Source of the DNA: an uncultured Eubacterium sp.
GTDB taxonomy: Bacteria > Bacillota > Clostridia > Peptostreptococcales > Anaerovoracaceae
DNA: 64,000 bases
Reading direction: 5' to 3'
Assembly: GCA_946555345.1 (NCBI GenBank)
Contig: CAMNSS010000002.1
Location: 124,001-188,000, forward strand
In this document: in pieces, positions 1,452 to 61,172 of the stretch
Layout: each line of letters opens with the position of its first letter
Position numbering within the stretch: position 1 is the first letter of the stretch
The notes under the pieces: model-generated
Told to the model about the DNA's origin: nothing
The model's database searches: none
The model's input: the letters and a program-made list of their open reading frames with translations, nothing else
Translations under genes and position numbers: made by a program

Positions 1452-3301
1452 TCGCCTTTCATCGGGATCAGCACGCTACAGCGCACGCCCCCGGGAATAT
1501 TTTCGATAAAGATCTTGCCCTTCATCCGCTCTTCTACGATTTGCCTCGATATGTAAAGCCCCAGCCCAGTGCCTCCCGATTCCTCCTTCGTCGTAAAATA
1601 CGGCTCAAAAAGAAGCGGCATGATCTCCGCAGGAATCGGATCGCCAGGGTTTTCAATGGCAATTTTTATCATATCGCCTGCCCGCACAACGGAAATATCT
1701 ATTTTCCTGCCTAAAGGTCCCACGGGCATGGATTCGCCACTGGAACGCCCTGCGTTCCTGCTAGTGATGCCTGTAGGTGCAGATGCGCCTTTTGCACTAT
1801 CCGCCATCCTGCCGCAAGCCCTGGAGGATACGATCGCATCCCGGGCATTATTGAGGATATTGAATATGACATGTACCGTTTCGTTGTAATAGCCAAATGC
1901 CTCTTCATCGGTTTCGCATGAAATAGCCACCTCGATCTTATGAAACGTAATGCTTTCTTCCATCAGGGAAAGGGCGGATTTAATGCACTGCTTCACAGGA
2001 AAGCGTTCCTTTTCCTTCGTCGGTTTCAGGAAACCGGAAAAATCCGTTATGGTTTCCGACATTTTATCGATGATGCCGTCTACCTTATCGACGCTCTTCT
2101 GTAAACGCCGCTCATCTAAATCATCATACCGGTAACTATCCAGCAGGTTTGCCAGGATGAGCTTAATCGTATTCAGCGGCTGTTTCCATTGATGCGTAAT
2201 ATTCCCCACCATCTCGCCGATTTTCGCCTGTCTGGACTGATACGCAAGCAGAATATCCTTTTCACGGTTTTCCGCTTCAAGCGAACTCTGCCTTCTGATA
2301 AACGGCCTTGAAAAAGCGCCGAGAAAAGCAATCAGCACGACGGCGAGAATCAACGCCATCACAAAAAAAACGCTCGTCAATGATTTGACCGGCTTATAGG
2401 CCGCTTCTTGCGGCTGGACGATGACCATTGTCCAGCCATTATCCATTTTTGAATACCCTAATATTTTTTTCGTTTCCGCAAAAGTATACTTGATATTGCC
2501 CGATTTTTTTGCATGATTAGCGTTGGCTTCTTTCTGCAACTGCTTCCGTATGACCGGTTCTTCCCCGGAGGTGTCCTTCTTCGGATACACCAAAAACTCA
2601 AAATCCTCATCCAGCAATGCGGAATACCCTTCCGGGTAGAGCTTCATCGCCTCGATAATGCTGATGGTATCATCCGCATTGATATCCGCACCCGCAACAC
2701 CGATAAACAAATCGCCAGCATAGATCGCCCGCGAATACGAAAACACATCCTCTTGAATATCCTTATCGTAATATGGGCCTGTCCATACGCCAGCATACTG
2801 AATTTGCGGCTCGAAAAAATAGACCATGTCCTCTACATACGGAAGCTGGAAATCCCGCCGGTTCGCCTGAAAATCCGCTGAAATTTTCTGGACCTTCCCA
2901 TCCACGACAGCATACCACACCTCATGCTCCCTCTCCGCCAGCTCCGGATTAAATGTCACATAGAGGCTATGGGCATTGGATACCGTATTCATGTTCGTCT
3001 CGATCAGCTCAGAAAGCGATTTTTCGTACTGCCGCAAATATGCTTCCGGGTCATCTTGAAGACGCTCTGCGTCAAAAGTCGTCGCCACATGGGAAGCCAG
3101 GGAATCCGTCAGCCCTTCCATATGATTGAACTTGGCGCTGAAATCATTTGAAAACTTTTCGGCGGTAATCAATATTTTTTCTTCGATCTCAGCAGTTAAA
3201 TAAGAAGTTCCCCTCGCGATGGAGATATATCCTACGACAATGGCAACGCTGATCGAAAATACCGTAATAAGGCTGATAATCTTTGCAAACGACCGATTCA
3301 T
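1448..3301 (-). CDS. membrane sensor histidine kinase with Cache sensor
   Basis: A 617-residue kinase. TM1 spans about residues 8-28, an extracytoplasmic dCache-like sensor about 30-300, and TM2 about 309-331. The dimerisation/phosphorylation box is around H370 in GNITHQWKQPLN, the N-box is ILNNARDAI (481-489), and the G2 box is GGTGLGLY. About 42 residues of Gly/Ser/Ala/Arg-rich low complexity (492-533) are inserted just after the N-box, where related kinases have a short loop. I start at ATG 3301 (MNRSFAKI), 10 nt after the upstream stop, because this gives a normal signal-anchor. The frame stays open further upstream into the preceding gene. It probably phosphorylates the downstream receiver protein; the ligand is unknown. 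Confidence 0.88.
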   Translation of the reverse strand: MNRSFAKIISLITVFSISVAIVVGYISIARGTSYLTAEIEEKILITAEKFSNDFSAKFNHMEGLTDSLASHVATTFDAERLQDDPEAYLRQYEKSLSELIETNMNTVSNAHSLYVTFNPELAEREHEVWYAVVDGKVQKISADFQANRRDFQLPYVEDMVYFFEPQIQYAGVWTGPYYDKDIQEDVFSYSRAIYAGDLFIGVAGADINADDTISIIEAMKLYPEGYSALLDEDFEFLVYPKKDTSGEEPVIRKQLQKEANANHAKKSGNIKYTFAETKKILGYSKMDNGWTMVIVQPQEAAYKPVKSLTSVFFVMALILAVVLIAFLGAFSRPFIRRQSSLEAENREKDILLAYQSRQAKIGEMVGNITHQWKQPLNTIKLILANLLDSYRYDDLDERRLQKSVDKVDGIIDKMSETITDFSGFLKPTKEKERFPVKQCIKSALSLMEESITFHKIEVAISCETDEEAFGYYNETVHVIFNILNNARDAIVSSRACGRMADSAKGASAPTGITSRNAGRSSGESMPVGPLGRKIDISVVRAGDMIKIAIENPGDPIPAEIMPLLFEPYFTTKEESGGTGLGLYISRQIVEERMKGKIFIENIPGGVRCSVLIPMKGE

Positions 3302-3311
3302 AATATGCCTT

Positions 3312-6809: not shown

Positions 6810-6821
6810 ATATTCAGTAAC

Positions 6822-9630: not shown

Positions 9631-10236
9631 TTACTTTTTTTCGGAAAGATCCAGTGCGATCTGCTGCATATACACGCCGCTTTGCTCAAAAGCGCCGCTT
9701 TCGTCCTCTGCCAGCACCCCTTCGATATCCTCGATTGCAGGAAGCTCCTTGAGCGTTTCAAACCCGAACTTTTTCAGAAATTCATCGGTTGTGCCATAAA
9801 GGACAGGCCTTCCCACCGAATCGGAACGCCCCACCTCCGACACCAGGTTCTTCCTGACAAGTCCTTCTATCACCCGGTCGCATTTAATTCCTCGCACCGC
9901 CTCGATCTCGCCTTTGGTCACAGGTTGCTTATAGGCTACGATCGCCAGCACTTCCAGGGCAGACTGCGAAAGTTTTTTGTGCTTAACCGGAGTGCAGAGC
10001 CGTTCTATATAATCCAAATTTTCCTTTCGGGTAACAAATTGGAAGCTCCTGTTGACTTCCCGGATCACGATTCCCCTGCCTTCCTGCTCGTATTCAGCCT
10101 GAAGCTCCTTGCAATAATCATATATTAGCTTTTTATCGAGGTTAAAGATCTCCGCAACATCCTTGACGTCAAGGGGCTTTCCCCAGATGAACATCATGGA
10201 TTCGATTGCTGATTTAACCGTCTTTTTCCCGCACAT
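9631..10236 (-). CDS. scpB: segregation and condensation protein B
   Basis: A 201-residue ScpB with two winged-helix domains. Typical motifs are KSAIESMMFIWGKPL at the N-terminus and LSQSALEVLAIVAYKQPVTK in the middle, followed by VRGIKCDRVIEGLVRK. It binds the SMC-ScpA complex that condenses and segregates the chromosome. The start at ATG 10236 (MCGKKTVK) has GGAGGAACAGG upstream and lies inside the 3' end of scpA, giving a 23-nt overlap and probable translational coupling. Confidence 0.93.
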   Translation of the reverse strand: MCGKKTVKSAIESMMFIWGKPLDVKDVAEIFNLDKKLIYDYCKELQAEYEQEGRGIVIREVNRSFQFVTRKENLDYIERLCTPVKHKKLSQSALEVLAIVAYKQPVTKGEIEAVRGIKCDRVIEGLVRKNLVSEVGRSDSVGRPVLYGTTDEFLKKFGFETLKELPAIEDIEGVLAEDESGAFEQSGVYMQQIALDLSEKK

Positions 10237-11227
10237 TTGCCTGTTCCTCCGCTCCGTATTCTTCCGCCCCCTGCGCATCTGCCTCTGCACCGTATTCTTC
10301 CAATGCGCCGTCTATCGCCTCTTCGCCTCTTATCGCCGATTCATCATTCATTGCCGATGCGCTGCCCTGCATATCCGCCAGTGTGCCGCTTTCTTTCGGT
10401 GCGCCGCTCTTTGCAGCCGCCAACGTGCGATTTTCTCCCAGCGCATCGCCTTGCACATCCGCAAATGCACCGCCCTTTGCATCAAAAATGTGCGGTGTCG
10501 CTTTTACCGTGATATCGCCAAAGATGTATTTCTGGTCTGCGTCAAGGCGCCTTGCCTTGATCATTTCGAGAACGGAAGAAAAGGTCACGGCAACATCATA
10601 CATATCCGTCTTATCCTGCACCAGGTTTTTAAAATTCGTTTCGCCCGCATCGTGATTGCGGAAAAAATCGCTGATGCTTTCCATGCGCGCTTCCGTTGTA
10701 ATCCTTTGTTTTTCACTTCTCCTGGGATGAGCCTGTATCTCCTCCAGCTTTTTTTTCCGTTGCAGGAAAAGCTCAAAGGCTGATTTAAATTTATCGAGAT
10801 CCAAACAGAGGTGTTCGTCCGGCTCGCCCGTATATTCCGCTAAGTCTTCCTGTGGCTTTTCCAGGTGCATTGCCGCTTCCCTGCCCCTGGCTTCCAGCAT
10901 TTCCGAAATAGCCTTAAATCGCTTGTATTCCACCAGCTTCGCCACCAGCTCCGTCCGCGGGTCTTCCATGATGTCGGCTGTGCCGTCTTCCGCCACGCTT
11001 CTCGGCAACAGCATTTTTGACTTGATTTCCAAAAGCGCCGCTGCAAGCACCATAAATTCAGAGGAAACACTGATATCCGCATCCTTCATGTCCGCTACAT
11101 AACGCATATACTGATCGGTGATTTCCGAAATGCTGATATCGTATACGCTCATTTGCGCATGCTCGATCAAATACACGAGCAAATCAAACGGACCTTCAAA
11201 GGTATTCAATTTTACCCTGTATCCCAT
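10214..11227 (-). CDS. scpA: segregation and condensation protein A with low-complexity tail
   Basis: ScpA (kleisin) bridges the SMC heads with ScpB. The N-terminal signature is YRVKLNTFEGPFDLLVYLIE and the middle has FMVLAAALLEIKSKMLLPR. The start is ATG 11227 (MGYRVKL), preceded by GGAGGG. The 11 extra upstream codons would come from the repeat array and are excluded. At about 337 residues it is longer than the usual 240-260. The excess is a Gly/Ala/Glu-rich tail of about 85 residues (roughly 10214-10490), built from imperfect 14-15-residue repeats containing GGAFADVQG and GTLADMQG. The tail is probably dispensable for kleisin function. Confidence 0.93.
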   Translation of the reverse strand: MGYRVKLNTFEGPFDLLVYLIEHAQMSVYDISISEITDQYMRYVADMKDADISVSSEFMVLAAALLEIKSKMLLPRSVAEDGTADIMEDPRTELVAKLVEYKRFKAISEMLEARGREAAMHLEKPQEDLAEYTGEPDEHLCLDLDKFKSAFELFLQRKKKLEEIQAHPRRSEKQRITTEARMESISDFFRNHDAGETNFKNLVQDKTDMYDVAVTFSSVLEMIKARRLDADQKYIFGDITVKATPHIFDAKGGAFADVQGDALGENRTLAAAKSGAPKESGTLADMQGSASAMNDESAIRGEEAIDGALEEYGAEADAQGAEEYGAEEQANVREKDG

Positions 11228-17599: not shown

Positions 17600-17910
17600 C
17601 ATACAAAAAGGCTTGGCAGTTTTCCAGAAAATCACAGCGCCATGTCAAGAAAGCGTTCGTGCCATGCAAAAAACCTCGGCGTCATGCGAAAATGCCCCCG
17701 ATATGCTGGAGGACTTCGCCGCCATGCCAAGAAAGCGCCATGCGAAAAGCCTCGGCGTTACGCAAAATTCCTTGGCATTATGCCCAGAAAGCGCCAGCGC
17801 CATGCGAAAAGCCTTTCCATGATACAATACAGCTTTTCCATCATGCAAAAGATGCGCGCCATGTCAAAAAAATTCCGCTGCCATGCCAGGAAAATACCAC
17901 GCTATACGTT
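17600..17910. repeat. degenerate repeat of about 21 bp between radical SAM and FeoB-like genes
   Basis: Recurrent GCCATGC-rAAAr and CTCGGCGT blocks return every 20-23 bp (for example GCCATGCAAAAAACCTCGG and GCCATGCGAAAAGCCTCGG). Copies are diverged and indels blur the period. It separates two divergent genes; 17911-18010 would hold the plus-strand promoter, but no clear -35/-10 pair is visible. Confidence 0.7.
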
Positions 17911-18010: not shown

Positions 18011-19300
18011 ATGCTGCAAAGGATACTCACCCATAAAATCCCCGGCCTATTTATATTTTTTCTCATAATGGGGCTTGTCTTCCACCTGACTTTTAATGTA
18101 GCGGGCAAGGAATTGAGCAGCCTTCTTGCCCGCCTCATCGATGCGGCGACAGAGTGCATCAGCGGCCAGCTTCTTGCAGCCGGGATAAACCCCGTCTTTC
18201 ATGCCCTCGTGGTGGACGGGGTCTGCGCTGGCGTGGGAAGCGTCCTGTCCTTCATCCCTGTAATCGCCGTACTGTTTTTCTTGCTTTCCGTTCTCACGGA
18301 AAGCGGCTATTTGTCTTATGTCTCGATGCTTTTGGACCGGCCGTTCCGGTGCATCGGGCTTTCCGGCGAAGCTGCCGTTCCCATGATCATGGGCTTTGGC
18401 TGTTCCGTTCCCGCTATCATGGCGGCCAGCTCCCTTTCCCAAAAAAAAGAACGCTATTTGACGATGCTTCTGATTCCTTTCATGTCTTGTAGTGCAAAGC
18501 TTCCAATCTATGGGGCGCTGGCGGGTGCGTTTTTCTCCCAGCACAGAATGACCGCCATTATCGCAATCTATGTGATCGGAATCCTGACGGCCACACTATG
18601 CTGCGCCGCCTTAAACCGCATCCTGCATTCTTCCCGCCACGCCGCATCCCTCTATGCTGCGTCCCGCCATGCCGCGCCATGCCGCGCCGCGTGCCGCCGC
18701 GCTACAGCTTGCCATGCAGGAAGCCCCGCCGCCACGCAGGGGCATTGCTCCGCAAAGCCCCTGCCGCCTTTGCAGCTTCCTTCCCTGAAAAAAGTGATGC
18801 GCCCTGTTGCCAATAGTTGCCTCGGTTTCATCAAAAAAGCATTCACGATCATATTTGCAGCGTCTATCATCATATGGTTTTTCCAAAATTTCAATATGCA
18901 TATGCACATGACCACCGATATCGAAGACAGCATCCTTGCCTTTCTCGGCAAATCGGCCGCGCCTTTTTTTACGCCCCTTGGCTTTGGAGATTGGCGCGCG
19001 GCTTCTGCACTGATTGCGGGGCTGTCCGCCAAAGAAGCGGTACTGAGCACACTGGCCATCCTTTCCAGCTCTGCGGGCAGCGCATCCCTGGCGTCATTGT
19101 TAACAGAAGTTTTCACGCCCTTATCCGCATTTTCCTTTATGGTGTTTTGCCTTCTATATGTCCCCTGCATCGCCACGCTGACGGTCATCCGCAAGGAAAC
19201 GGGCAGAATCAGCATCAGCCTGATGATGCTTCTTGGGCAAACCGCCATCGCCTGGCTCGTTTCATTCTTGCTATTTCACATGGGAAGCCTTATAATTTAA
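18011..19300 (+). CDS. FeoB-like permease lacking the GTPase domain
   Basis: A 429-residue membrane protein corresponding to the C-terminal transport part of ferrous iron transporter FeoB. Gate motifs are MIMGFGCSVPAIMAASSL, PFMSCSAKLPIYG, GLSAKEAVLSTLAIL and LLYVPCIATLTVIRKETG. Normal FeoB has an N-terminal G domain of about 270 residues; here none precedes the start and upstream DNA is only repeats. The start has its own site (AAGGAG, ATG 18011), so the short form seems intentional. About 50 residues of His/Arg/Ala/Cys-rich pentapeptide-like sequence (about 18625-18777, for example RHAAP, CRAAC, CHAGS) interrupt the region between the two Gate halves. It could be an iron or nucleoside-type transporter. 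Confidence 0.75.
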   Translation: MLQRILTHKIPGLFIFFLIMGLVFHLTFNVAGKELSSLLARLIDAATECISGQLLAAGINPVFHALVVDGVCAGVGSVLSFIPVIAVLFFLLSVLTESGYLSYVSMLLDRPFRCIGLSGEAAVPMIMGFGCSVPAIMAASSLSQKKERYLTMLLIPFMSCSAKLPIYGALAGAFFSQHRMTAIIAIYVIGILTATLCCAALNRILHSSRHAASLYAASRHAAPCRAACRRATACHAGSPAATQGHCSAKPLPPLQLPSLKKVMRPVANSCLGFIKKAFTIIFAASIIIWFFQNFNMHMHMTTDIEDSILAFLGKSAAPFFTPLGFGDWRAASALIAGLSAKEAVLSTLAILSSSAGSASLASLLTEVFTPLSAFSFMVFCLLYVPCIATLTVIRKETGRISISLMMLLGQTAIAWLVSFLLFHMGSLII

Positions 19301-19361: not shown

Positions 19362-20618
19362 ATGAAATTATATATTGCGGATGCTTTCACCGAAACGCTT
19401 TTCGGCGGCAATCCCGCCGGAGTCGTCCTTTTGGAAAACGGTAACGATTTCCCGCCTGATGAAATCATGAAAAAAACTGCCGCCGAGCTTCGTTATTCAG
19501 AAACGGCCTTTATCAAACAGCTTGGGAAAGATGAATTTCAGATACGCTATTTCACCCCAGCCGCCGAAGTGGACTTATGCGGCCACGCTACCATCGCCTC
19601 TTTTGCCTGCCTGATGGATGCAGGCCTTGCAAAGAGCGGGAAAAGGTACACGAACCATACGCTGGCTGGGCAGCTTCAAATTGAAATACAAGACGGACTC
19701 GTGATGATGGATATGGCGCCGCCAAAGCACATCGCTACCATTGATGATGCGCCTGCACTGCGTGAGCTTTATGAAACGATGGGGCTTCCTTACGCACCGG
19801 ATGAAGCCGCACCAGATGAAATGGCCGGGATTTCCGGCCGGGCGGATTGTCCTGGGAGATCTGGAACCGCTGCCAAAACGGGCTGTTTCGGTCAGGCTAA
19901 ATCCGCCGTCCGAGCGGGAAACCTGATCCCGATGATCATCTCCGCCGGGCTTGCCGATATTATCATGCCAGTACCAAACCGTTCTGCGCTTACCGCTATC
20001 GCGCCTGACTTTGAACGGCTAAGCGAACTTTCCAAAAAGTACGAGGTTGTCGGCGTGCATGCGTTCACGCTGGAAAGCAATATGCCTGGCATTACGGCGC
20101 ATTGCCGGAATTTCGCCCCGCTGTATGGCATCGACGAGGAGGCGGCGACAGGTACTTCCAGCGGAGCGCTCGCATACTACTTATACAAAGCTGGCCTGCT
20201 GGAAAACAGCACTGTATCTTTCATCCAGGGAGAAGCAATGGGACGGCCGTCAAAAATCCTCGCCAGCATAAAGGCTGCAGAGCGGAGCAGCAAAACCTGC
20301 GGCTGCGCCAGCGAACCCGCCAACGTTTGCGGAACAGGCAGGATGGGCTGCGGAAGTACCGGAGGCGGCTTCGATGAATGCAGCATTGTTGGCGACAGCT
20401 TCGATAGCGGTGATAGCGAGGCTTGCGGAGCGGGCAGGGATTTCGCTGATTCGGACAAGAACTGCGGCCAAACGGGCAAAAATGACGCTAGCATTTGCGG
20501 TGATAGCAGGACGGGCAACGAATGCGCTGATGCTCCTGAAATCCGCATTCAGACAGGCGGCAAGGCCGCAATTCTCGCCAAAGGGGAAATCATGCTTTCA
20601 CTGCCAAATATATCTTGA
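19362..20618 (+). CDS. PhzF-family isomerase-like protein with low-complexity insertions
   Basis: The start at ATG 19362 (MKLYIADAFTE) follows GAGGAGGAATTTGG. Family motifs are FGGNPAGVVLL, RYSETAFIKQ with the catalytic-type glutamate, FTPAAEVDLCGHATIA and EEAATGTSSGALAYYLY. PhzF proteins (diaminopimelate-epimerase fold) isomerise small metabolites; most have no known substrate. At 418 residues it is over 100 longer than usual. The excess is about 40 residues near 19800-19925 and a Gly/Asp/Ser/Cys-rich block at about 20275-20565 (with CGCASEP, GCGSTGGG, ICGDSRTG). The conserved last strand (AAILAKGEIMLS) resumes after it, so the insertion is in frame. Confidence 0.8.
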   Translation: MKLYIADAFTETLFGGNPAGVVLLENGNDFPPDEIMKKTAAELRYSETAFIKQLGKDEFQIRYFTPAAEVDLCGHATIASFACLMDAGLAKSGKRYTNHTLAGQLQIEIQDGLVMMDMAPPKHIATIDDAPALRELYETMGLPYAPDEAAPDEMAGISGRADCPGRSGTAAKTGCFGQAKSAVRAGNLIPMIISAGLADIIMPVPNRSALTAIAPDFERLSELSKKYEVVGVHAFTLESNMPGITAHCRNFAPLYGIDEEAATGTSSGALAYYLYKAGLLENSTVSFIQGEAMGRPSKILASIKAAERSSKTCGCASEPANVCGTGRMGCGSTGGGFDECSIVGDSFDSGDSEACGAGRDFADSDKNCGQTGKNDASICGDSRTGNECADAPEIRIQTGGKAAILAKGEIMLSLPNIS

Positions 20619-25299: not shown

Positions 25300-25560
25300 A
25301 CGCAAAAGGCAAAGGGCAAAAGAGAAACTTGCGGAGGGCAAAAGAGAATTTGCAGAAAGCCAAAAGAAAACTTGTGAAGGCCAATAAGAAAATTGTGAAA
25401 GCCAAAACGAAAACTTACGAAGGCTATGCGTGAACGCCATAAAAAGCAAATGAGGTTTTATGGAAGCCAAACGGAATTTCCTTGAAAATGAAAAGGGACG
25501 TTTGCGAAAGCCGAAAAAGGCGCTTGCGAAGGCCTGAAAAAAATTTACGAAGATTAGGGA
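25300..25560. repeat. degenerate repeat of about 23 bp after hydA
   Basis: A purine-rich array in which GGCAAAAGAGAA / GCCAAAAGAAAA and ACTTGCGAAGG-like blocks alternate every 21-24 bp. It fills the gap from the hydA stop to the AEC ribosome binding site. There is no terminator, so the AEC gene may be co-transcribed. Confidence 0.75.
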
Positions 25561-27588: not shown

Positions 27589-28338
27589 TTAACGATATCG
27601 CCCTGCATAAATTTTTTTCGCTTCAAGAGTCCATTTCCTGACGAAAGCTGCCTTTGCGTCCGTATACGCATCCCGATCATGTTCAAATAACTTCCACAGC
27701 TTCAATTTTAGCGTTTCATATTCCTTGGCAACCTGCGGATGCTCGTTCAAATAATCCCTGAAATACAATTCATCGCAATCCCCCGCATAGCGAAGGTGGA
27801 TATGAAAAACCTTGTCAGCAAACCCGGCTTTCGTATATCCACGAGTAAACGATATTCTGCCCGGTTTCGTTGACATCCGCATAAAGCCATTGTTTTCAAT
27901 GACTTTTGCCGTATCTTCAAGGGCGGCGGCCATAAAAGAGCGATTCGCACGAGATGGGTTCGCAGAGGAATTGGCAAGCAAGGGCTTTATGGGAGAGTGA
28001 TTCGCAAGCGGATTTCTTATGGAAGAGAGTCCCGCAAACAGAGGCTTCCCCTGGGCAGAATCCTCGGATGAAATATTCTTATGAGCGTTCCCGTCTTGAT
28101 GGACGGAATCCTGCGATATTTCGACTAGGATATCGACGATATCCTTTGCCCATATGCCAGATATCGCAGTACTCCCAATATGGCTGATTCGTTCAACGGG
28201 GCAATCAGACAATAGGTCTTTCAAAAAAATTTCCATTTCCTTATAATCCATATGCCACTTGTCATTGTGGGCAACAAGGGATATGGGAAACAGCTCCCAT
28301 AATTCTTCAAAAGACATTTCCGATAATTCTTTGCACAT
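27589..28338 (-). CDS. GrpB family protein with internal repeat insertion
   Basis: GrpB proteins are small nucleotidyltransferase-fold proteins of unclear role. Motifs here are ISHIGSTAISGIWAKDIVDILVE, KVFHIHLRYAGDCDELYFRDYL and a basic C-terminus. At 249 residues it exceeds the usual 170-180. The extra segment (about 27925-28115) follows the DIVDILVEI strand and consists of diverged 9-11-residue repeats (NPLANHSPI, KPLLANSSA, NPSRANRSF). The fold continues afterwards with VIENNGFMRM, so reading frame is kept. Start ATG 28338 (MCKELSEMSF) follows AAGGGG at long spacing; the frame is open 25 codons further upstream. Confidence 0.75.
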   Translation of the reverse strand: MCKELSEMSFEELWELFPISLVAHNDKWHMDYKEMEIFLKDLLSDCPVERISHIGSTAISGIWAKDIVDILVEISQDSVHQDGNAHKNISSEDSAQGKPLFAGLSSIRNPLANHSPIKPLLANSSANPSRANRSFMAAALEDTAKVIENNGFMRMSTKPGRISFTRGYTKAGFADKVFHIHLRYAGDCDELYFRDYLNEHPQVAKEYETLKLKLWKLFEHDRDAYTDAKAAFVRKWTLEAKKIYAGRYR

Positions 28339-40146: not shown

Positions 40147-41124
40147 TTATTTGCTTTGTTCCCTGTAATAAACCTCCGCCAGGTACAGGCCGTAAGGCGG
40201 CGCCGTATGCCCTGCTGCGGATCTGTCCCCGCATGCAAGAATGCGTTTCATTCCGCCTGCGGATTTCTTTCCCAAACCGATGTCTACAAGCGTCCCTGTT
40301 ATGATTCTTACCATATTGTACAAAAAGCCGTCGCCGCTGATGTGAATCTCTACATCACCCGCAAAGCCGCCCGCAAAATCCGGCCTGCGTGCAGGCTTCT
40401 GCCTGCCTGTAGATTCTGCCCTGCCAGCGGTCTTTTTCATGCCCGCATCCGGGGATTTTCCCGCCAGCGGCAGCCCCGCCAGATTTCGTTCGTCCAAGAA
40501 CTCCGCCGTCCGTTGCCCGCACGCCGCCGCAAGAGGCCTTCCCGCACGCCGCTCCCGCACCGCCAATACCTCCGCATCAAATATCGTCCGCACCGTCGTC
40601 TTGCGCGGATTTCCGCCTGCGCTCTCAAAGGATTTGAAATCATGCGTCCCCTTCAAATAAGCGGCGGCGCTTTTCATTGCGCTGATGTCCAGCGGCCTGT
40701 CCACATGATAAACATAATTCCGCTGAAAGAGATCGACTACCCCTGTGTTGTTGATCCTGTAAATGTATTTTTTCCCTTTGGCGTCAAACCTGGCATGGAA
40801 GGAAAGCGGCATTTCCTCTGCGGCAGTAATCCGGATCGGCGCAATCGCAAACGAACTCTTTTCCCGCCCCGCTAAAACATTATTCACCACCAACGGAATC
40901 CGCTCCACCGGAATCTTGATATCCGCCCGAAAAGACGCCCTTTGCCCCAGCGCATGAACGCCTGCATCCGTCCTGCTCGTCCCGTTCAGCAAGACTGGAA
41001 CGTGAAATACCGAGGACAGCGCCGTTTCCAGATATCCTTGTACGGTTTCCTTGTCCGGCTGTCTCTGCCACCCGGAAAATCCAGAGCCATCATATGAAAT
41101 TGTCAGCAGGATATTCTTTTCCAT
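40147..41124 (-). CDS. truA: tRNA pseudouridine(38-40) synthase with large insertion
   Basis: TruA motifs are [28 protein letters not shown] with the catalytic Asp, [16 protein letters not shown] and [16 protein letters not shown]. It isomerises uridines in the tRNA anticodon arm. At 325 residues it is about 70 longer than normal. The excess (about 40370-40570) is Arg/Ala/Gly/Pro-rich and separates two strands of the fold (TIFDAEV and VEIHISGDG). Start ATG 41124 has no Shine-Dalgarno sequence; see the promoter entry. Confidence 0.92.
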
Positions 41125-42004: not shown

Positions 42005-42961
42005 ATGAACATAGTTGCCAATATAACACAAGATATTGTATTAATCGTTGAAGATACTGTAGCCAATCATGAGGTAATCCGAACGTTTCTCAACGACATC
42101 AATGTAAGATGTGAAAGTGCATTTGATGGCATGGAAGCGGTAACAAGATGCAGCTTAGTTGAAAAAAATTACTACTCGCTCATCCTCATGGACATCAATT
42201 TGCCCAAAATGAATGGATTTCAAACGGCCACAAAACTGCGGAGCCTGGGAATGAAAGCCCCGATTATCGCAATCACCGCATCCAGCAAGGACGATGCCAG
42301 GCTGAACGATGCGCGCGGGCTTTTTGATGCGTTCTTGTTTAAACCGTTTAATTCATCTGAATTCCTTACCGCAATTTCCCCGTATGTCCACAATGCATTA
42401 CAATACTCCTTGGCGCCGAATGCCATGCAAAAAAAGGAAGATAGCACGCCTGCAGTCGATCCGCAAATTTGCGATGTCCAGCGGGCAGTCGATAATATGG
42501 GCGGAAGCTTCCGGCTCTTTGAAAAGCATTTTAACCATTTCAAGCGAAACAATGCGGATCTGGCATTCCGCATGGAATCTTTGGTTCAGCAAAACCATTT
42601 CCCTGAGTGTTCCGTGCTTTGCCACTCGATCAAAGGACTCTCCGGGATGCTTGGCCTTACTGCGCTTTATGAGCATATGATCGCATTGGAAGAATGCCTC
42701 AATAAAATGCCCGCACCCCCAGCGCAAGGTGAAGATGCGCAGAATGGAGCGGCACAAAGCGGAAATGTACAGAACGATATGCCACAGGGCAAGGCAATGC
42801 AGGGAAAAGCCAGGCAGAACGATACGGTACAAATCGGAATCTCGCAAGGCGAAGACGCGCAGAATGAGACAGCGCAGGGAAAAGCGCTCCAGCATAAAAT
42901 CTGTGAACTGCTCCCTGCCATAAAAAACGACATCCGCCTGGTATGCAAGGTGCAAGTTTAA
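42005..42961 (+). CDS. receiver-Hpt phosphotransfer protein with pentapeptide repeats
   Basis: A 318-residue soluble protein. The receiver domain is residues 10-130, with D63 (LMDINLPKMNG) and K113 (FLFKPF). The Hpt domain is about 160-235, with H207 in CHSIKGLSGMLG. Residues 240-299 are twelve consecutive pentapeptides in which the second residue is always Gln (AQGED, VQNDM, PQGKA and so on). The last helix of Hpt (ELLPAIKNDIRLV) follows them, so the repeat sits in the loop before it. The protein could relay phosphate for orphan hybrid kinases such as the one at 3312. Start ATG 42005 follows AAGGGG. Confidence 0.9.
   Translation: MNIVANITQDIVLIVEDTVANHEVIRTFLNDINVRCESAFDGMEAVTRCSLVEKNYYSLILMDINLPKMNGFQTATKLRSLGMKAPIIAITASSKDDARLNDARGLFDAFLFKPFNSSEFLTAISPYVHNALQYSLAPNAMQKKEDSTPAVDPQICDVQRAVDNMGGSFRLFEKHFNHFKRNNADLAFRMESLVQQNHFPECSVLCHSIKGLSGMLGLTALYEHMIALEECLNKMPAPPAQGEDAQNGAAQSGNVQNDMPQGKAMQGKARQNDTVQIGISQGEDAQNETAQGKALQHKICELLPAIKNDIRLVCKVQV
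42722..42901 (+). repeat. in-frame 15-bp tandem repeat, 12 copies
   Basis: Twelve exact-length 15-bp units with consensus close to GCGCAGAAYGAARYG. Codon 2 of every unit is CAA or CAG. No copy is identical to its neighbour. Confidence 0.95.
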
Positions 42962-45694: not shown

Positions 45695-46165
45695 TCAAAT
45701 CTTTCTGCTCCGAATGCATTCCGCCCTGGCCGCATTGACCCAAGGATTCGTGCCGCCTGAAACCCTGCTGATCTTTTTAACGACCAGATTGCCCGTGCCG
45801 CCGCTTTCCTGATATGCACAGATGGCTGCCGCAATCACCGCTGCGATCACCTCATCGCTTCCCTGCTCCTGCGCATTTGCCGCAATGCCCGCAACACCAA
45901 GCGATGAATCTTCTTGCGATACACCAGCGGCAGGCGGCGCATCCGCTTGTGATCCGGCTGCTTCCGCCGGGGAAACTGCCTTATCTTTCTTCTGCACAGC
46001 ATCCATCATTCTTCCCATGACTGCGACAAAGCCCCACAGGATGCAGAGAATAACGAAAGTAATCCCCATGCCCATGAGCATAGTAACAGCCGACCCGGCC
46101 ATCTTTTCACCAAAGCTTAAAGAGCCAAACAGTGCGGGATCTGAAAACTTTTCCATTAAACCCAT
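45695..46165 (-). CDS. OadG/MmdD-type decarboxylase delta subunit
   Basis: A 156-residue protein. One N-terminal membrane helix (MLMGMGITFVILCILWGFVAVM) is followed by a Lys-rich and Ala/Ser-rich linker and a C-terminal segment EVIAAVIAAAICAYQ ending in NPWVNAAR. This is the assembly/anchor subunit of sodium-translocating decarboxylases. Start ATG 46165 follows AGGAGGTG, 11 nt after mmdA. Confidence 0.82.
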   Translation of the reverse strand: MGLMEKFSDPALFGSLSFGEKMAGSAVTMLMGMGITFVILCILWGFVAVMGRMMDAVQKKDKAVSPAEAAGSQADAPPAAGVSQEDSSLGVAGIAANAQEQGSDEVIAAVIAAAICAYQESGGTGNLVVKKISRVSGGTNPWVNAARAECIRSRKI

Positions 46166-47724: not shown

Positions 47725-47843
47725 TTATGCATCCTCCTGCCTGATAACATTTTCCTGCAAACGCTAAAATGCTGCGCCAGCCAGATTTGCAAGAAATACC
47801 CGGCATATGCGCCGGAATTTCTTTCCGCTGGTCAGCCGTCTGC

Positions 47844-48008
47844 CTATCGGCCGCACGCCGCTTATTTTGCTATTGCCTATCGGCCGCCAGCCATTTATTT
47901 TCCCATTACGCAACGGCCGCCAGCCATTTATTTTCTTATTGTCCATCGGCCGCTAGCTACTTATTTTCTTATCGCTTATCGGCTGCACGCCTCTTGCTGC
48001 TCCGGATT
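47844..48008. repeat. degenerate 33-bp tandem repeat entering the glyA 3' end
   Basis: Units start at 47844, 47877, 47910, 47943 and 47976. Each begins CTATCGGCCGC or a variant and contains TTATTTTCTTAT. The fifth unit starts exactly at the glyA stop codon and includes its last codons. A minus-strand frame across the array encodes 11-residue repeats like KINGWRPLRNG, which I regard as non-coding. Confidence 0.9.
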
Positions 48009-49355: not shown

Positions 49356-50924
49356 CTAGCTTACGACCCGCTCCAGCCGCTTTAACGCCAGTGCCATCGT
49401 CAGCCCTGGAATAACGCGGTTTCCCGTGATTTCCACGCCTAACATCTCATTAATTTTTTTCAGCCTGTACTGAACCGTGTTCGTATGGATTCCCATAAAT
49501 TCCGCCGTCTTGCCGCTGTTCATGCCAGCATCCAGCACAAAGGTCTCCAGCGTGTCCAAAAGCTGCTTGCCCTTATTTTCACCAGCCTCCTTGAACGGCT
49601 CTAAAAGCTCAATGTAATTCTTCTTCACAAAACCGCCCTGGATCTGGATATTGATGCAGTTGCTGACAAGCGTAAGCTCATATTTGGTGAAAACACGTTT
49701 ATACGGAAATACATTCTGCACGAAAGACCAGCTTTCGCTGATCAGCCTGTAAGCATCCCCCGCGCCTTCGATGCCATTCAGCCCCGTCACGTGGAAAATG
49801 CGGGCTTTTTTATTTCCTTTCATCTTATTGAATAGCTGTACGCAGCTATTCTTGACGCTCGGATTGATGCCTTCGTCTTCATAGGTCAATATCATGCCGT
49901 AGGTCTCATCCCCCTCGGTGATTTTCATGATATTCAAGTCCGCTTCCTTCTCAAATTCTGCGAAAATCTGGCTCTCCGCCTCGTGTCCGATTCCCTTGGA
50001 AAAGAACACGCTGAGGATTTCGTCACCGCTGATTCTCGCTTCATCTTTAAGCGTATAAGCAAGGCTCTTGTTGCCCCGGATCAGGGACTTGATGAACTCT
50101 GCCTTGGCATCCCGCTCCGGCGTATATTTCCACATTCCCATCGCCAGCTCGATGATTTCAGCCAGCTTCGTGATTTCCCCTGCGGTATAGGAATCTTCAT
50201 TATCCACGATAAACATATAATACTTATCGTTGTTAATGGCGACCGGACCCCAGTAAGTCAATACGCCATTGACATCGATCATGGTATAGACCTTGGAATT
50301 GCTCTCCACGTTTCTTTCCTTGCCCAGCTTGATCGCATCCGCAATCGTCGCCTTGTGCCTGGTTTCCACCGTCAGGATAGGGTTGAAATCTTCACTCAAA
50401 ATGATCAGTTGAAAATCGTTGTTGATCGCAGCTTCCCGCACCGCCGATTGAAAATTGCTATGTTTCTCGAAATTCAACAAATGAAAAACCGTATTGCTGA
50501 TGAGGCTATTGCTAAAATTGTCTCCGTACAACACCTTGTCCATTACATCGGAAATAGCCTGCGAATATTCCGCCGCCTGCGGCATCAGAAGGAGCGGCAG
50601 CATCGCCCGCTCCGCCGCATTGATAACCCGCTGGTCCAGTTTTTTAACGGCTTTTCCAACATAATAAACAGCAAGCGCCGCACAGCCTTCCGCCGCCACG
50701 GCGCTGACGATATCGCACTGTTTTTCCACATCATCCCTAACGCCCAAAAAACCCGTGAGCAAAATTTCCGTTTTCACGTTTCCGCAAAATTTGATATCTT
50801 CCGCCCGGCAGATGTCTAACACGGATACAGCCTTAACATCGTTTGCAAGATTCAGTTTTCCAGCCACTACCTCCGCACCGCAAAACGCATCGAGGGTAAG
50901 GCAGTCCGCTACTGTAACCTTCAT
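49356..50924 (-). CDS. PucR-family transcriptional regulator
   Basis: A 522-residue regulator. The N-terminal PucR domain has [20 protein letters not shown] and [14 protein letters not shown]-like/GAF-like middle is followed by the C-terminal HTH_30 helix-turn-helix ([20 protein letters not shown]). Relatives control purine or amino-acid catabolism. ATGA overlap with ftsH upstream; glyA is the next gene downstream. Confidence 0.88.
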
Positions 50925-53353
50925 GATCGTTTCCCCTCATCTTCATCCGGCGCTGAATCGGTGTCTTCCGCATCGATTTTGTCCCCATCCGTTAAATCGC
51001 TTTCATCATCGTCTGCCAAACCACTGCCGCCGCCCTCGCTGTCTGCCAGATCGCTTTCATCGTCTGCCGTTAAGCCAGCTTCATCATCATAGTCATCATC
51101 ATCGTTGAGATAATCCGTATCGTATACAGCCAGCTCTTCTTCGCTCGGCATATCGTCATCGTCCATCTCCGGTTCGTCTATTTCCGCTTCATCCGAATCC
51201 GGCGCATCGTAAGGAGGAATATCTACCGGATCTTTGCCTGTTCCGTCAAATTTCGGCGTTTTCTTGCCAGCGCCTTCCGTTTCCTCCGGCTCGTCCTTTG
51301 CTAAATGCATCGGATCAAACGGCTTGGCCGTCTTCGTCACATCGTTATAAGTCATGAGCTTCGGCTTGGATTTTCCGCCTTTGCCCGATGATTCCAACGC
51401 TTTTGCGGCTTCCTCCAGTTGCCGCTTTTTCGCCAGCTCTGCTTCCCGCTTGCGCATCTTTGCAGATTCGGCTGCCTCCTGCTGGTCAAGCTCCTTCTTT
51501 TTCTCCATGTGCAGGCGAAGCGCCTCTGCCAGCTCCTGCGGCGACTTTTCGCCATCGTAAAGCTGCACGAACTGATCGTGATCCAGCGTTTCCACTTCCA
51601 AAAGCCCCTCCGCAACAGCCGTGAGCTGCTCCATATGCTCTGAAAGGATCTTTTTCGCCGCCTCAAATGCCTCCTCTACAATCGCTTTCACTTCCGCATC
51701 GATTTCTGCGGCAGTACCTTCCGAATAATTTTGCCTTGTCGAGAAGTCCTTCCCCAGGAAGACCTCATCCGAAGAGCTGTAATTCACAGGACCTAGCTTG
51801 TCGCTGAATCCATATTTCGTCACCATCTCCTTGGCGATATCGGTCGCCCGCTGGATGTCATTGCTTGCGCCCGTGCTGATATCATCCAGCGTCAACAGTT
51901 CGGCCACGCGCCCGCCCAAAAGGTGGATAATCTGCTCCCGCATCGTCTCCTTCGTGCCATAATACTTGTCCTCTTTCGGCAAAATCATGGTAAAGCCGCC
52001 GGCGCGCCCGCGCGGAATGATGGTAATCTGATGGACTGGGTCGGTCTTTGGCAGGACGTGGGCAACCACGGCATGTCCCGCTTCATGGTATGCCGTCAGT
52101 TTGCGTTCTTCTTCGCTGATTACCCTGCTCTTCTTTTCCGGTCCTGCGATTACCTTGGTGATCGCTTCTTCAATTTCATCCATCCTGATTTTCATGCCGT
52201 TTCTTCTGGCCGCCAAAAGCGCAGCCTCGTTTAGCATATTTTCGATATCGGCAGGGGAAAATCCCGGCGTCCGCCTCGCAAGCACCTTCGCATCGACGCC
52301 GTCATCCAGCGGTTTATTCCTGGAATGTACCCGGAATATCTCTTCCCGTCCTACGATATCCGGGATTCCGATCACGATCTGCCTGTCAAACCTTCCCGGC
52401 CGCAACAACGCCGGATCAAGCACATCAGGTCTGTTGGTCGCCGCCAGTATGATGATTCCCGCATTCTCGGCAAAGCCATCCATCTCGACCAGAAGCTGGT
52501 TGAGCGTCTGCTCCCGTTCGTCATGGCCGCCGCCCAGGCCTGCGCCCCGCTTGCGCCCTACAGCGTCGATTTCGTCGATAAATACGATACAAGGCGCATT
52601 CTTCTTCGCCTGCTCAAATAAGTCCCGCACCCTCGATGCGCCGACGCCGACGAACATTTCCACAAAATCCGAACCGCTTATGGTAAAAAACGGCACGCCT
52701 GCTTCGCCTGCGGTCGCTCTTGAAATATAGGTTTTTCCTGTTCCCGGAGGACCTACCAGCAGGATTCCCTTGGGAATCCTTGCGCCCAGGCTGTTATATT
52801 TGGCAGGATGGCGCAGGAAATCGACGATTTCCTCCAGTTCTTCCTTTTCCTCCTTGAGTCCTGCCACGTCTTTAAATGTAATCTTTTTCAGCTCGCTGTC
52901 CTTTTGCAGTTTCGCCCTGCTCTTACCGAAGGACATCGCTTTGCCCCCGCCGCCGCTTTGGTTCATGATCATCACAAAAAAGAAGATCATGATGCCGATC
53001 ATGATCAGGGTCGGCAAAAGGTTCAGGAAAATGGATTCCTTTTTCGGTTCATCGCTTTCCAGCTTCAGCGTCCCATCGTCCACCTTGGGCATGATATACA
53101 TATCGTAGATATAACTCAGATCCACAACGCTGTTCACGTATGCGTATACCGTATCGCCCGTTTCCAGCTTCGCCGTCAGCTTCGTATCCGTCACGTTGAT
53201 GCTTTCCACCTCATCATCCTTGAGGTGCTTAACCATTGTGGAGGTTTTAACTTCCTGCTGTTCTTCCGGCGCATCGCTGTTGTAAAACCAGACCATGGCA
53301 AACACGAGACCGAATATGACTAAGTAAATTACAATATTTCTCGTTTTCTTCAA
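50921..53353 (-). CDS. ftsH: ATP-dependent zinc metalloprotease FtsH with acidic tail
   Basis: A membrane AAA+ protease of about 810 residues. Two N-terminal helices ([37 protein letters not shown]) flank a small external domain. The AAA core has [13 protein letters not shown] and the protease motif is HEAGH. I choose TTG 53353 because GGGAGG precedes it at 9 nt and [11 protein letters not shown] is a typical FtsH start. The last 150-170 residues are an extension of very acidic Asp/Glu/Ser sequence with DDESDL repeats, well beyond the family length of about 640. Confidence 0.95.
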
Positions 53354-53722: not shown

Positions 53723-54886
53723 TTACCGCATTTTTGCAAAGGTTACGCTGCCTTTTGCCACCGTAACGCTGTATCCATGCGGAAACTGGACGGTCTTCGG
53801 CGCTTGCTTTTTTTCGATAATCACATCTGCCGACCTGATCCGCTCTTGCGAAATATCCCGCATAAGGCCTACCTTGCGGAAGGCCTTGAGCATGACCCTG
53901 TGCCGCAACGCTTTCGGAAGCGCAGCCAGTTCCTCCCGCTTCATCGTAACGGCAGAACATGAACCGCCGCAAGCCCCGGCCGTCCGGGCGGGTCCAATGC
54001 CTGCTCCGACGGAGCTATCTGCAATTCCACCCGCTTCAAACCCGCCTGCTTCGGGGGTAATAAGCCTTTGATACGCATCATCCGCCTGCTGCCACAAATA
54101 CGCTTTATCGTCCGCGGCGATCTGGGAAAGGCGCACGAGGGCTTCCTCTATGTTTTCATTATATCCCGTTTGCAGATAAGGAATCAGCTTTAGCCGGATT
54201 TTATTTCTGGCATAAACAGCTTCCTGGTTGGTATGGTCTGTTACCGGATGCAACTGGTTATGGCTGCAATACGCTTCGATTTCGCTCCTGTAAAGATCGA
54301 GCAAAGGGCGGATTACTTCAAAGCCCCGCTCGTCCCGTTTGTATGCGATTCCGGAAAGCCCGTCGATGCCCGTTCCCCGCAGCAAGCGGAACAATACGGT
54401 TTCCGCCTGGTCGTTGGCATTCTGCGCCACTGCGATTTTTATGCGGCTGCGGATTTTCGCCATGCCATCCGCCGTCTTCGTGCGTTCCTCGTCTGCGAGC
54501 TGCAACGAGACTTGCTCTGCAATCTCGTAAAAAGCATCATAACGGGCTTTGCGCCCGGCTTCTTCGCTCGTCATGTGCAGCTCTTCCGCCAGCTTGTTGC
54601 AATCCACCACAAAAGAATGGCAGGAAAGGCCATTCCGGCGGCAAAGCTCTTCCACATACCACTGGTCATGTTCCGCTGCATAGAGCCTGAATTTATGGTT
54701 GACGTGAACCGGATGGATCGCCAAGTTCATATCTTTTTGAAGAGCCAGCAGCACATGAAAAAGGCACACTGAATCAGGACCTCCCGAAAGACCGATTACA
54801 ATGTGCTGGTTTTCTGTCAGCAAGCCTTGTTCTTCTATGGTTTTTCTGACTTTATCTTCTGTTTTTTTCGTGATATCCGGTAACAT
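53723..54886 (-). CDS. tilS: tRNA(Ile)-lysidine synthetase
   Basis: A 387-residue N-type ATP pyrophosphatase. The PP-loop is VIGLSGGPDSVCLFHVL; others are HVNHKFR, AQNANDQAETVLFRLLRGTG and YARNKIRLKLIPYL. It converts C34 of tRNA-Ile(CAU) to lysidine, making it read AUA. The C-terminal region is shorter than in Bacillus and is interrupted by a Gly/Ala-rich stretch (about 53955-54060, EAGGFEAGGIADSSVGAG). Start ATG 54886 follows AAAGGA. Confidence 0.93.
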   Translation of the reverse strand: MLPDITKKTEDKVRKTIEEQGLLTENQHIVIGLSGGPDSVCLFHVLLALQKDMNLAIHPVHVNHKFRLYAAEHDQWYVEELCRRNGLSCHSFVVDCNKLAEELHMTSEEAGRKARYDAFYEIAEQVSLQLADEERTKTADGMAKIRSRIKIAVAQNANDQAETVLFRLLRGTGIDGLSGIAYKRDERGFEVIRPLLDLYRSEIEAYCSHNQLHPVTDHTNQEAVYARNKIRLKLIPYLQTGYNENIEEALVRLSQIAADDKAYLWQQADDAYQRLITPEAGGFEAGGIADSSVGAGIGPARTAGACGGSCSAVTMKREELAALPKALRHRVMLKAFRKVGLMRDISQERIRSADVIIEKKQAPKTVQFPHGYSVTVAKGSVTFAKMR

Positions 54887-54958: not shown

Positions 54959-56953
54959 TCAGAGAATATGCGCTACCATAACCGTAAGATCATCCCGTTC
55001 CTTTCCGATATAACTGTCCGCCGCTTGGTTGAGGATCAGGTCGCTCATGGCCTGCGGGTCTTCAGACCTGACGCTGGCGGCAGTCTCTTTGATCCTGCCC
55101 AGAAAGCTTCCGGCATCCCGCCGCCGTCCATCCGCTCCCGTCACTGCGCCGAGCAAACCATCGCCGCCGTCACTGACGCCATCGGACATCATGATGATCC
55201 AGTCATCTTTCTTCAATGTTGTTTCCACATAACGGATTTTAAGCCCATTTACGATACCCAGCGGCAGCGCCGAAAGCTTTACTTCCTCCACATTGCTCTT
55301 TCTCCGTATCAGCGTGGGAGCCGCTCCAATTTTATAAAACCTGGCGTTCCCTGTCTTCCGGTCTATCGTAATTAAATCTACCGTTGCGTAAAAATCCTCA
55401 TCCTCCTTCATCAGCATGATCGTATTTATCATCTTGAGCGTAAGATCCGTACTCACGCCTGCCCGGAGAAGGGAAATAATTGTTTTCGTAACCATGAGGC
55501 TCTCCGCCGCCGCCTTTTTCCCCTTTCCCATGCCGTCGCTGACCACCATCGCAGTCTTTCCATCGCCAATATCCTGCCAGCCGCAGCAATCCCCATTGAT
55601 CGCTCCGCTGGCTGCACACTGCGAAATCGCTAAATCGACCTGAAACCTCTCATGTGCTTGCAACGCCGCCCGTCTCTCACCCTGCCCGAGCTGCCGCCTG
55701 ATATCGTCGATGATCTGCCTGGTGATGCTGAACTGATTGGCAAGGACCGACCTGCTATCGAAATAGGTCGCATAAAGCTCGGCCAAATCATCCATCTCAG
55801 CAATTTTGCCGCACAAAACCGCCTCCATGCGGTTGTCGCCCACATCTGCCGCCGTGGCATAACCGAAAAAGAGCCTTTGCATGATCCGGCGCATCTTGCT
55901 GCCAAACCGCCAGTTGAGCGCCAGAAACGCCGCAGAAGCCAAGAACAAACTATAGCTGTCAATGCCTAATATGACGCCGCTTTCCGCACTGCCGAGCACT
56001 TGGCAGACTGCCGCAAAGATAACTACCGAAAAGAACACGCCATATTTCTTCACAAACGACGCCGCAACAAGCCCTGTCATGACGGTAGCCATCAATCCCC
56101 ACTGTGCCTGTTCTAAAAGTGCGGCCATGATGCCGCCTGATGCCGTAACGAAAAGCGCCATTCCCGTATCGGCATAAGCCTGCACCCATAACGCAAAAAA
56201 TAGTATAGCAATCCAAGCCAGAAAGGATAACCCCAATCCATTCATTAACATAATGCATACAAATGTAAAAGCCGCTAATCTCAACTCCTGTGCGTACGGC
56301 CGCAATGAGAAACGGCGCCCAGGATTGCCGGAAACAGAACGTCCAGCGGACTCCGCCGCAAAGCCATTGCCACCCCGTCCGGCAGACTCCGCCGCAAAAC
56401 GGCTATCGCTATGCCCAGCGCCTTGCTCTGCTCGGTCGCTGGCGTCCCGTTCAAAATCTTCCGGCCGCCCACCTGCGTCCCGCTCGAAAATCCCGAAGAA
56501 AGCATCGAACAAGAATACCATAAAAAAAATCAGAAGGCCTTCTATCAGCAAAAGCTCGATGCTGGTTTTATACACAGTCGCCGTCGCCAGCCTGTATATG
56601 CTGATGCAAACGATCCCGATCGAAGCTGCGATAGCCGCCCGCTGCCACAGCGATAGCCTTATGTGCCTGGCCGCCGTAAAGATAATCGCGCAGACAGCCA
56701 TGGCGGCAAGCTCTCCCCACGGATCATATCCCCTCACAAGGCAAGAAAGCATCCCCGCTGCTGCCGGAGCGAGCAAATACAAATGATATGCTCCTTTTGA
56801 CAGCATATAGGCGATAAGCGATATCCCTGCTGGGAAGCAACTTCCCAAAAGCGGGCTGCGGCATAAGGCAAAAGCGAGCAGCATAAATGCAATGCCTTTA
56901 ATCAATTTCGTTTTCGGCAAATGAAAAGCGCCTGATTTGGTGGTATTTTCCAT
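54959..56953 (-). CDS. spoIIE: stage II sporulation protein E-like serine phosphatase
   Basis: A 664-residue protein. The N-terminal half has about ten membrane helices; the C-terminal half is a PP2C/SpoIIE phosphatase with GDCCGWQDIGDGKTAMVVSDGMGKGKKAAAES and the metal-binding DWIIMMSDGVSDGGD. In Bacillus it dephosphorylates SpoIIAA to activate sigma-F. About 65 low-complexity residues (about 56300-56495; FERDAGGRPED, FAAESAGR repeats) are inserted in a loop between helices. Start ATG 56953 follows GGAG. The spoIIE-tilS-ftsH order is typical for sporulating Clostridia. Confidence 0.88.
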   Translation of the reverse strand: MENTTKSGAFHLPKTKLIKGIAFMLLAFALCRSPLLGSCFPAGISLIAYMLSKGAYHLYLLAPAAAGMLSCLVRGYDPWGELAAMAVCAIIFTAARHIRLSLWQRAAIAASIGIVCISIYRLATATVYKTSIELLLIEGLLIFFMVFLFDAFFGIFERDAGGRPEDFERDASDRAEQGAGHSDSRFAAESAGRGGNGFAAESAGRSVSGNPGRRFSLRPYAQELRLAAFTFVCIMLMNGLGLSFLAWIAILFFALWVQAYADTGMALFVTASGGIMAALLEQAQWGLMATVMTGLVAASFVKKYGVFFSVVIFAAVCQVLGSAESGVILGIDSYSLFLASAAFLALNWRFGSKMRRIMQRLFFGYATAADVGDNRMEAVLCGKIAEMDDLAELYATYFDSRSVLANQFSITRQIIDDIRRQLGQGERRAALQAHERFQVDLAISQCAASGAINGDCCGWQDIGDGKTAMVVSDGMGKGKKAAAESLMVTKTIISLLRAGVSTDLTLKMINTIMLMKEDEDFYATVDLITIDRKTGNARFYKIGAAPTLIRRKSNVEEVKLSALPLGIVNGLKIRYVETTLKKDDWIIMMSDGVSDGGDGLLGAVTGADGRRRDAGSFLGRIKETAASVRSEDPQAMSDLILNQAADSYIGKERDDLTVMVAHIL

Positions 56954-60130: not shown

Positions 60131-60236
60131 TCCTTTCCTCTTGCGCTGCAAATGGGCAGCGGCTTTATTGAAACTTCCCCGAAAGCCCATAAGGCATCCG
60201 GGACAGCGCCGATCACGCAAACGGCATCGGCTCTTC

Positions 60237-61172
60237 TTAAAGAAACAGCGACGGCTCTTTTCGCGCCGCATATTCGATTTCCAGTTCTTCCTTATGGTAT
60301 AAGTATCCCGCATCGTCAAAATACAATGCGCCCTGCGGGCATTTCTTGACGCACCCACAGCACTTGATGCAGATTCCGCTCACTGCGCCTGGCGTATCCG
60401 CCTGAATCGAACCCATCGGGCAGGCTGTAACGCATATGCCGCATCCATTGCATTTTTCCCGGTCGAGCTTCGGCTTCACCTTCAAAATATTGATGAAATT
60501 CCCCTTCCGGTCGCGCGGCTTATAGTACGGGCGCAGCGGTTCTTCCCCCGCCACCGCCACAGGACCTGCCGCCGAAAGCGCAACGGCAATCCGTGCATTG
60601 TCACCGCCGTTTTCCACAATCAAACGCCCCACCTTGGCTGCGGCTTTTGCTGCAAATGCATCGGCAAGCTTCATGTCCTGCGCATCCGGCCTTCCTGCTG
60701 CCAGCGCTTTAGAGAAGGAATGCTCTCCGATAAAGGCCGCAGCCGCCACCGTATGAAAGCCCCTTGCTTCCAAGATATTGCGAAGCTCAATCAGCGCATC
60801 GTCAAAGTTGCGGTTTCCATAAAGCACGACGGGGACTGCCATCGCATTGCCGCCTTGCAGCGTGTCCAAAAATTTCAAAAGCACGTTCGGAACCCGCCCG
60901 GCAATAACAGGCGTGCCGAATACCACGATATCGTTTTCATCAAAGGCATATGCTTTATCCCTCGCCTCTCTCGGCGAAAAATCGATGTTTTCAGCCTTGG
61001 TGTAACGAATGCTTTCCGCTTTTCCGCAGCTTGCTTTCCCGCCGGGGCTGCCTGCATCGGCCTGATTCCCGCCGCCAGCAAGCTGCTGCCACATTTTGTA
61101 TGCGATGCTTGCCGTCACCTTTGCCGTCGTGTTCGTGCCGGTGAAGTACATCGCCCTGATTCTCTTTTCCAT
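60237..61172 (-). CDS. EFR1-type flavodoxin-ferredoxin protein
   Basis: A 311-residue protein. The N-terminal flavodoxin-like domain has [15 protein letters not shown] and [15 protein letters not shown]. The C-terminal 2[4Fe-4S] ferredoxin has [15 protein letters not shown] and [16 protein letters not shown]. It is a cytoplasmic electron carrier common in anaerobes, with no defined partner. A Gly/Ala-rich stretch (about 61025-61080) interrupts the flavodoxin part. The start ATG 61172 has GAGAGG. Confidence 0.87.

Follow-up and report, generated by a model that had tools for sequence, protein, structure and literature searches.

Lineage-specific, locally repetitive in-frame blocks in conserved enzymes of an uncultured Eubacterium sp., with repeats of the same kind between its genes

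The window analysed here is a 64-kb stretch (positions 124,001-188,000 of its contig) of the draft genome of an uncultured Eubacterium sp. (G000; 2.85 Mb in 36 contigs), in which conserved genes including those for a histidine kinase, ScpA, PhzF, TruA, FtsH, TilS and SpoIIE carry low-complexity blocks within the reading frame. A Pfam scan of ten proteins found the domains of the named families in 10 of 10. The nearly collinear sister genome G022 was used as the main comparator and G023 and G055 as further sisters, within a searchable set of 49 genus genomes that includes G000, with one genome per species; the analysis covered ∼16% of the G000 genome. The blocks of the window and its repeat-bearing spacers are given below in order of position, where p values refer to self-repetition of the block DNA relative to codon shuffles.

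1703..1828, minus strand: histidine kinase block of 42 aa in the HATPase domain region (HATPase_c match, residues 499-637); p = 0.19.
10217..10462, minus strand: C-terminal tail of ScpA, 82 aa, missing in G022; p = 0.085 for total repetition and 0.010 for the best segment.
17638..17814, no strand: repeats in the spacer upstream of the FeoB-like gene, from the repeat search.
18626..18775, plus strand: FeoB-like protein block of 50 aa, rich in Arg, His, Ala, and Cys; p = 0.005.
19794..19925, plus strand: PhzF block 1, exceeding each of the 14 aligned genus orthologues by at least 23 residues; p = 0.005.
20283..20546, plus strand: PhzF block 2, C-terminal, 88 aa, missing in 14 of 14 aligned genus orthologues; p = 0.12.
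25312..25541, no strand: two spacer arrays (25312-25424 and 25489-25541) of degenerate 22-23 bp units, downstream of the third hydrogenase-type gene.
27913..28110, minus strand: GrpB block of ∼60 extra aa, missing in 9 of 9 aligned class-level homologues; p = 0.020.
40354/40375..40566, minus strand: TruA block, an excess of 64 aa over G022, from alignment with G022 and relatives.
42707..42898, plus strand: Gln-rich repeat of 64 aa near the C-terminus of a response regulator/Hpt-like protein; p = 0.005.
45875..45919, minus strand: 15-aa insertion in an OadG-like small subunit; both of the other sequences in which the two flanks are present are shorter at this site.
47841..47995, no strand: array of 33-bp units (4.7 copies) between the genes for MmdA and an SHMT-like protein; it overlaps the 3' end of the SHMT-like gene.
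50924..51049, minus strand: acidic C-terminal extension of FtsH, 42 aa, from comparison with G022.
51206..51274, minus strand: a further 23 aa of FtsH, from comparison with G022.
53954..54043, minus strand: TilS block 2, 30 aa, missing in G022 and at most 35% of its length in 23 of 34 others.
54443..54484, minus strand: TilS block 1, 14 aa, missing in G022 and variable in the genus (12 of 25 others without the block).
56303..56494, minus strand: SpoIIE block of 64 aa, missing in the 45% identical G022 orthologue; p = 0.005 for the best segment and 0.12 in total.
61038..61079, minus strand: 14-aa insertion relative to G022 in an EFR1-type protein, within a 34-aa low-complexity stretch (60987-61088); p = 0.005.

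A first-pass annotation, made from the letters of the window alone, had described in-frame Gly/Ala/Ser-rich and locally repetitive blocks in conserved enzymes that would prove specific to the lineage, a description borne out here for most of the proteins it listed, and had placed them correctly in the kinase, ScpA, the FeoB-like protein, PhzF, GrpB, TruA, TilS, SpoIIE, and the EFR1 protein. Excess over family length, which it had also proposed, is seen in ScpA, TruA, TilS, SpoIIE, and EFR1 relative to G022, and in PhzF, GrpB, and the FeoB-like protein, but is not confirmed for its further example TatD, whose segment is common to G022 at nearly equal length. In the proteins that it had named as free of inserts (HydABC, AtpD, AtpG, AtpA, MmdA, PatA, and PurD), no internal gap relative to G022 reaches 6 aa, although AtpA carries a 13-aa C-terminal tail. 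Several assignments have limits of their own. The FeoB-like block region is shorter in a G022 relative that is 40% identical and may be a paralogue, the FtsH tail is also variable in the one other species compared, the OadG-like label derives from position beside MmdA and not from a family search, and a family-level search with SpoIIE gave matches in 35 of 60 genomes, mostly at low identity. The PhzF comparison uses 14 of 15 relative loci, L199 being left out.

Alignment with homologues, which the same annotation had proposed as the check, finds the inserts missing in sister species. Comparison of 464 kb of G000 with 423 kb of G022 yielded 185 unselected reciprocal-best orthologue pairs with identity of at least 50%. 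Internal insertions of 12 aa or more number 22, in 14 genes, on the G000 side and two on the G022 side, one of these two (181 aa, an ABC-ATPase domain) lying opposite a reading frame truncated at the end of a sequence piece. Inserts of 12-82 aa in window genes (ScpA, TruA, TilS, SpoIIE, FtsH, and OadG-like) are all on the G000 side, in a comparison that leaves out the mis-framed G022 partners 39680, 60237, and 61319. Outside the window, insertions occur in TrmB, PanC, and a PdxR-like regulator, all above NCBIfam cut-offs, and also in an acyl-CoA ligase, a LysR-type regulator, a GPH symporter, and glycosyltransferases, which fall below them. For 17 of the 22 insertions the polarity came at first from G022 only; TrmB was settled with a wider alignment. 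Draft status of the genome, the variability of loops in many bacterial families, and the ordinary nature of TatD would all be compatible with an assembly artefact or with ordinary loop-length variation noticed through a selective listing of enzymes. The number and direction of insertions in the unselected pairs, a repeat density several-fold above that of relatives, and blocks that are open-framed throughout argue against this explanation, which we regard as most improbable.

Wider sampling gives the same polarity for individual genes. The TruA block is missing in relatives belonging to other families and genera (13 of 13 other rows in one alignment). Among named records, TruA is matched in Aminicella lysinilytica, Clostridium aminobutyricum, and Eubacterium pyruvativorans, among others, which would place G000 in the Clostridia close to these genera. 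The GrpB gene (window 27589-28413) is found in 1 of 49 genus genomes, and in 1 of the 18 whose completeness is 90% or more and whose contamination does not exceed 5%; at class level it occurs in 60 of 291 genomes, the closest in that sample being G354 at 68%. Since GrpB turns up in none of the other 48 genomes of the set and its aligned homologues (9 of 11 loci, L207 and L209 being left out by a motif filter) are without the block, a gene that came from outside, or that survives only in G000, has also gained one.

The loops of TruA, TilS, and TrmB carry segments elsewhere in the genus as well. In alignments of TruA (29 rows, with L022 left out and the G016 row truncated), TilS (30 rows), and TrmB (30 rows), segments of variable length and unrelated sequence occupy the same sites in several species, and some of them are plainly tandem, as in TruA of G012 and TilS of G001. 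The TruA site holds from 0 to ∼55 residues in other genus species. The TrmB loop comprises 100 aa in G000 and 8-14 aa in the sisters G022, G023, and G055, and reaches 66 aa in G064, 48 aa in G005, and 31 aa in G001, again without sequence relationship. Across species, which are not independent, the length of the TruA loop is correlated with that of the TilS loop (rho 0.80, n = 11), and the correlations of TrmB with TruA (rho 0.49, n = 16) and with TilS (rho 0.33, n = 20) are not significant. On the TilS core tree the long-loop label (7 of 30 rows) requires five changes, at least four of them forced by well-supported branches, and 55 of 500 shuffles are as low. Alignment of TruA and TilS to solved chains places the blocks between conserved stretches and shows nothing further; the loops that carry them would be exposed and disordered.

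About a dozen species share a similar 22-aa TrmB loop with a WPENVPGEE-like core (L227, L235, L236, L239-L245), possibly a fixed loop segment. Such conservation within a clade indicates that some loop segments can become fixed, and single blocks may thus have been co-opted.

These alignments bear on the proposal that the blocks are fast-evolving functional disordered segments maintained by selection for binding, regulation, or phase behaviour. Their hydrophilic composition would suit such a role, as would the fact that TruA, TilS, and TrmB, three of the best cases, all act on tRNA; in Plasmodium, according to PMC11260460, a low-complexity insertion in an exonuclease alters DNA binding. However, the blocks are missing in the close sister, are not conserved between species, and have the same repeats as counterparts outside genes, and we consider this explanation unlikely. 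Conservation of the same segments in homologues, as ordinary domains would display, is not found for TruA, TilS, TrmB, PhzF, or GrpB.

At the DNA level the blocks are internally repetitive. Self-repetition summed over blocks is 1356, compared with 569 ± 67 in codon shuffles, and 0 of 200 shuffles are as high. Taken singly, 13 of 27 blocks reach p ≤ 0.05, namely 6 of 15 in the window, which were chosen partly by eye, and 7 of 12 elsewhere, which were taken purely as alignment gaps of at least 20 aa. The other 14 of 27 show no significant self-repetition in the codon-shuffle test, so that some may be old and eroded or of other origin. Copies lie head to tail on the same strand and close together, as a minisatellite process would have them, and the main offset of the stronger repeats is mostly 25-130 bp. 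Same-strand repeats number 19.6 per 100 kb in the G000 sample as against 2.4 for inverted repeats. Comparison of blocks with their own 2-kb flanks gives direct matches at p ≤ 0.05 for 6 of 27 (combined p 7e-4), a modest signal in which two of the six are neighbouring blocks of one gene, and inverted matches for 0 of 27.

A mobile element, or a small number of them, inserted in frame in many copies after the manner of Rickettsia palindromic elements would account for additions to unrelated genes as well as for repeats outside genes, and a separate palindromic interspersed repeat of ∼75 bp does exist (window 11307-11628). Against this, none of the 25 most enriched 8-mers listed is present in more than 10 of the 150 repeat islands, inverted repeats are few, and what fills the TruA, TilS, and TrmB loops in one species is unrelated to what fills them in another. 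The low sharing of 8-mers and the unrelated loop sequences agree with the earlier view that the blocks do not form one family, and an origin from mobile elements appears highly improbable.

The ∼75-bp repeat, which has the palindromic ends TGAACGC...GCGTTCA, forms tandem clusters in the window and at L056 17876-18094 and L058 1-178. It is REP- or MITE-like and separate from the blocks.

Within genes, frame and composition are filtered. The actual frame of the blocks contains 0 stops in 1378 codons and 13% VILMFWY, whereas the other five frames contain 1.2-4.1 stops per 100 codons and 15-33% VILMFWY; the corresponding proportion is 32% for spacers translated in six frames and 35% for the proteins of the window. 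The blocks have 61% GC in a window of 50% GC, and their commonest residues are Ala, Gly, Ser, Glu, Asp, and Arg. Of the repeat offsets, 27 of 31 in trusted genes are divisible by three, as are 39 of 89 in spacers. Offsets in multiples of three, an open frame, and low VILMFWY content together fit undirected duplication followed by selection on frame and solubility. The blocks are presumably translated.

Repeats of the same kind lie outside genes. In the window, the 15 blocks contain 103 repeat bases per kb, the DNA outside listed genes 80, and the remaining parts of genes 0.9, a comparison in which the blocks, unlike the spacers, were picked partly for their repetitive look. Spacer lengths were compared with G022 over 33 neighbour gaps, measured between matched gene parts, less one that involved a spurious antisense ORF and seven of the wider gaps in which gene content differed or the TruA block was included. 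Among the 11 gaps of at most 25 bp in G022, eight are equal within 1 bp and three are longer by 107-120 bp in G000; of the 14 wider spacers kept, 11 are longer and three shorter in G000. The first-pass annotation had likened the blocks to elements invading proteins, and here it has to be revised: with such repeats outside genes and spacers often longer than in G022, the proteins are better described as bystanders of a process at the DNA level.

Direct-repeat islands per 100 kb, counted at a stricter threshold and excluding N (of which G022 holds 5039), number 28 in the window and 18 in a 400-kb sample of G000. Elsewhere the counts are 0-12 in eight genus relatives, with few islands in the G022 and G023 samples, 4 in other genera, and 5 and 23 in two order-level genomes. 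The value of 23 belongs to the low-GC outgroup G034 and comes largely from a CRISPR-like arrangement of regular, identical ∼28-bp repeats (L181 ∼2000-2500), probably a CRISPR array.

Taken together, the likely explanation is local tandem duplication on the same strand, acting genome-wide and most strongly in this species, with genes subject to a filter on frame and solubility. A DNA-level process would repeatedly copy short stretches in place, head to tail, on the same strand, after which the copies would diverge, and it would be weaker or patchy elsewhere in the genus. Spacers and genes would be struck alike; in spacers the result would be added length only, and in genes selection would retain insertions with an intact frame, no stops, and a hydrophilic peptide. 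Such selection would explain why blocks persist in loops and tails and not in conserved parts. The underlying event may have been replication slippage or unequal exchange.

Template switching to the other strand is rejected on the small number of inverted repeats and the 0 of 27 inverted flank matches noted above. It is very unlikely that slippage was raised because mismatch repair, or some other known step of repair, had been lost: MutS_I, MutL_C, and the PolA 5'-nuclease domain are all found in G000. SbcD (TIGR00619) is unmatched in G000, which would favour such a loss, but it is unmatched also in G022, G023, and G055, and in 12 of 49 genus genomes altogether. Since G022 and G023 are poor in islands, loss of SbcD is not a sufficient cause.

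Beyond the favoured duplication process, it is conceivable, though we hold it only tentatively, that standing genome-wide mutational activity keeps making new disordered segments in housekeeping enzymes, some of them fixed and useful; the bacterium would then parallel malaria parasites with their low-complexity proteome and be a natural source from which new protein sequence arises. If local duplication is the right explanation, a single bacterium would show new protein segments arising again and again, and sister species would provide clean pairs of the states before and after for one and the same enzyme loop. The amount of extra disordered sequence that an enzyme tolerates could then be tested, as could the driving mutational change, with mismatch-repair genes present. 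Enzyme lengths and low-complexity segments in such genomes should in that case not be taken as domains.

A search of open-licence papers listed no description of such blocks in Clostridia. Intragenic tandem repeats and VNTRs, as in Legionella, reportedly consist of minisatellite-like units inside genes. The blocks resemble them in having such units within genes, and differ in that the G000 units are degenerate, lie in housekeeping enzymes, and have a similar density outside genes. Rickettsia palindromic elements, described in PMC10969869 as ∼150 bp long and forming families with conserved peptides, are the nearest bacterial precedent for in-frame additions. Both systems add peptides in frame to unrelated conserved genes, but the present blocks, set beside that account (PMC10969869), show no obvious shared family, and no palindrome was found in them. 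Low-complexity regions are known from prokaryotic proteins, including the products of core genes, and the surveys stress either that such regions are conserved in presence and in function or that they are negatively associated with metabolism (PMC6821194, PMC12695832, PMC1524752), conservation being stressed in PMC6821194 and PMC12695832. The blocks are like these regions in being low-complexity segments of bacterial proteins and unlike them in being lineage-specific and lying in metabolic and tRNA-modifying enzymes.

Low-complexity insertions of Plasmodium, which are homopolymeric and Asn-rich, are the nearest analogue. PMC5762703 and PMC11260460 describe species-specific low-complexity segments in conserved proteins that are missing in relatives, and PMC11260460 describes the genome as extremely A+T rich. 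The likeness lies in segments that sit inside conserved proteins and are missing in close relatives (PMC5762703, PMC11260460), whereas the blocks described here are 61% GC, consist of degenerate units in place of homopolymers, belong to a bacterium, and have matching repeats outside genes.
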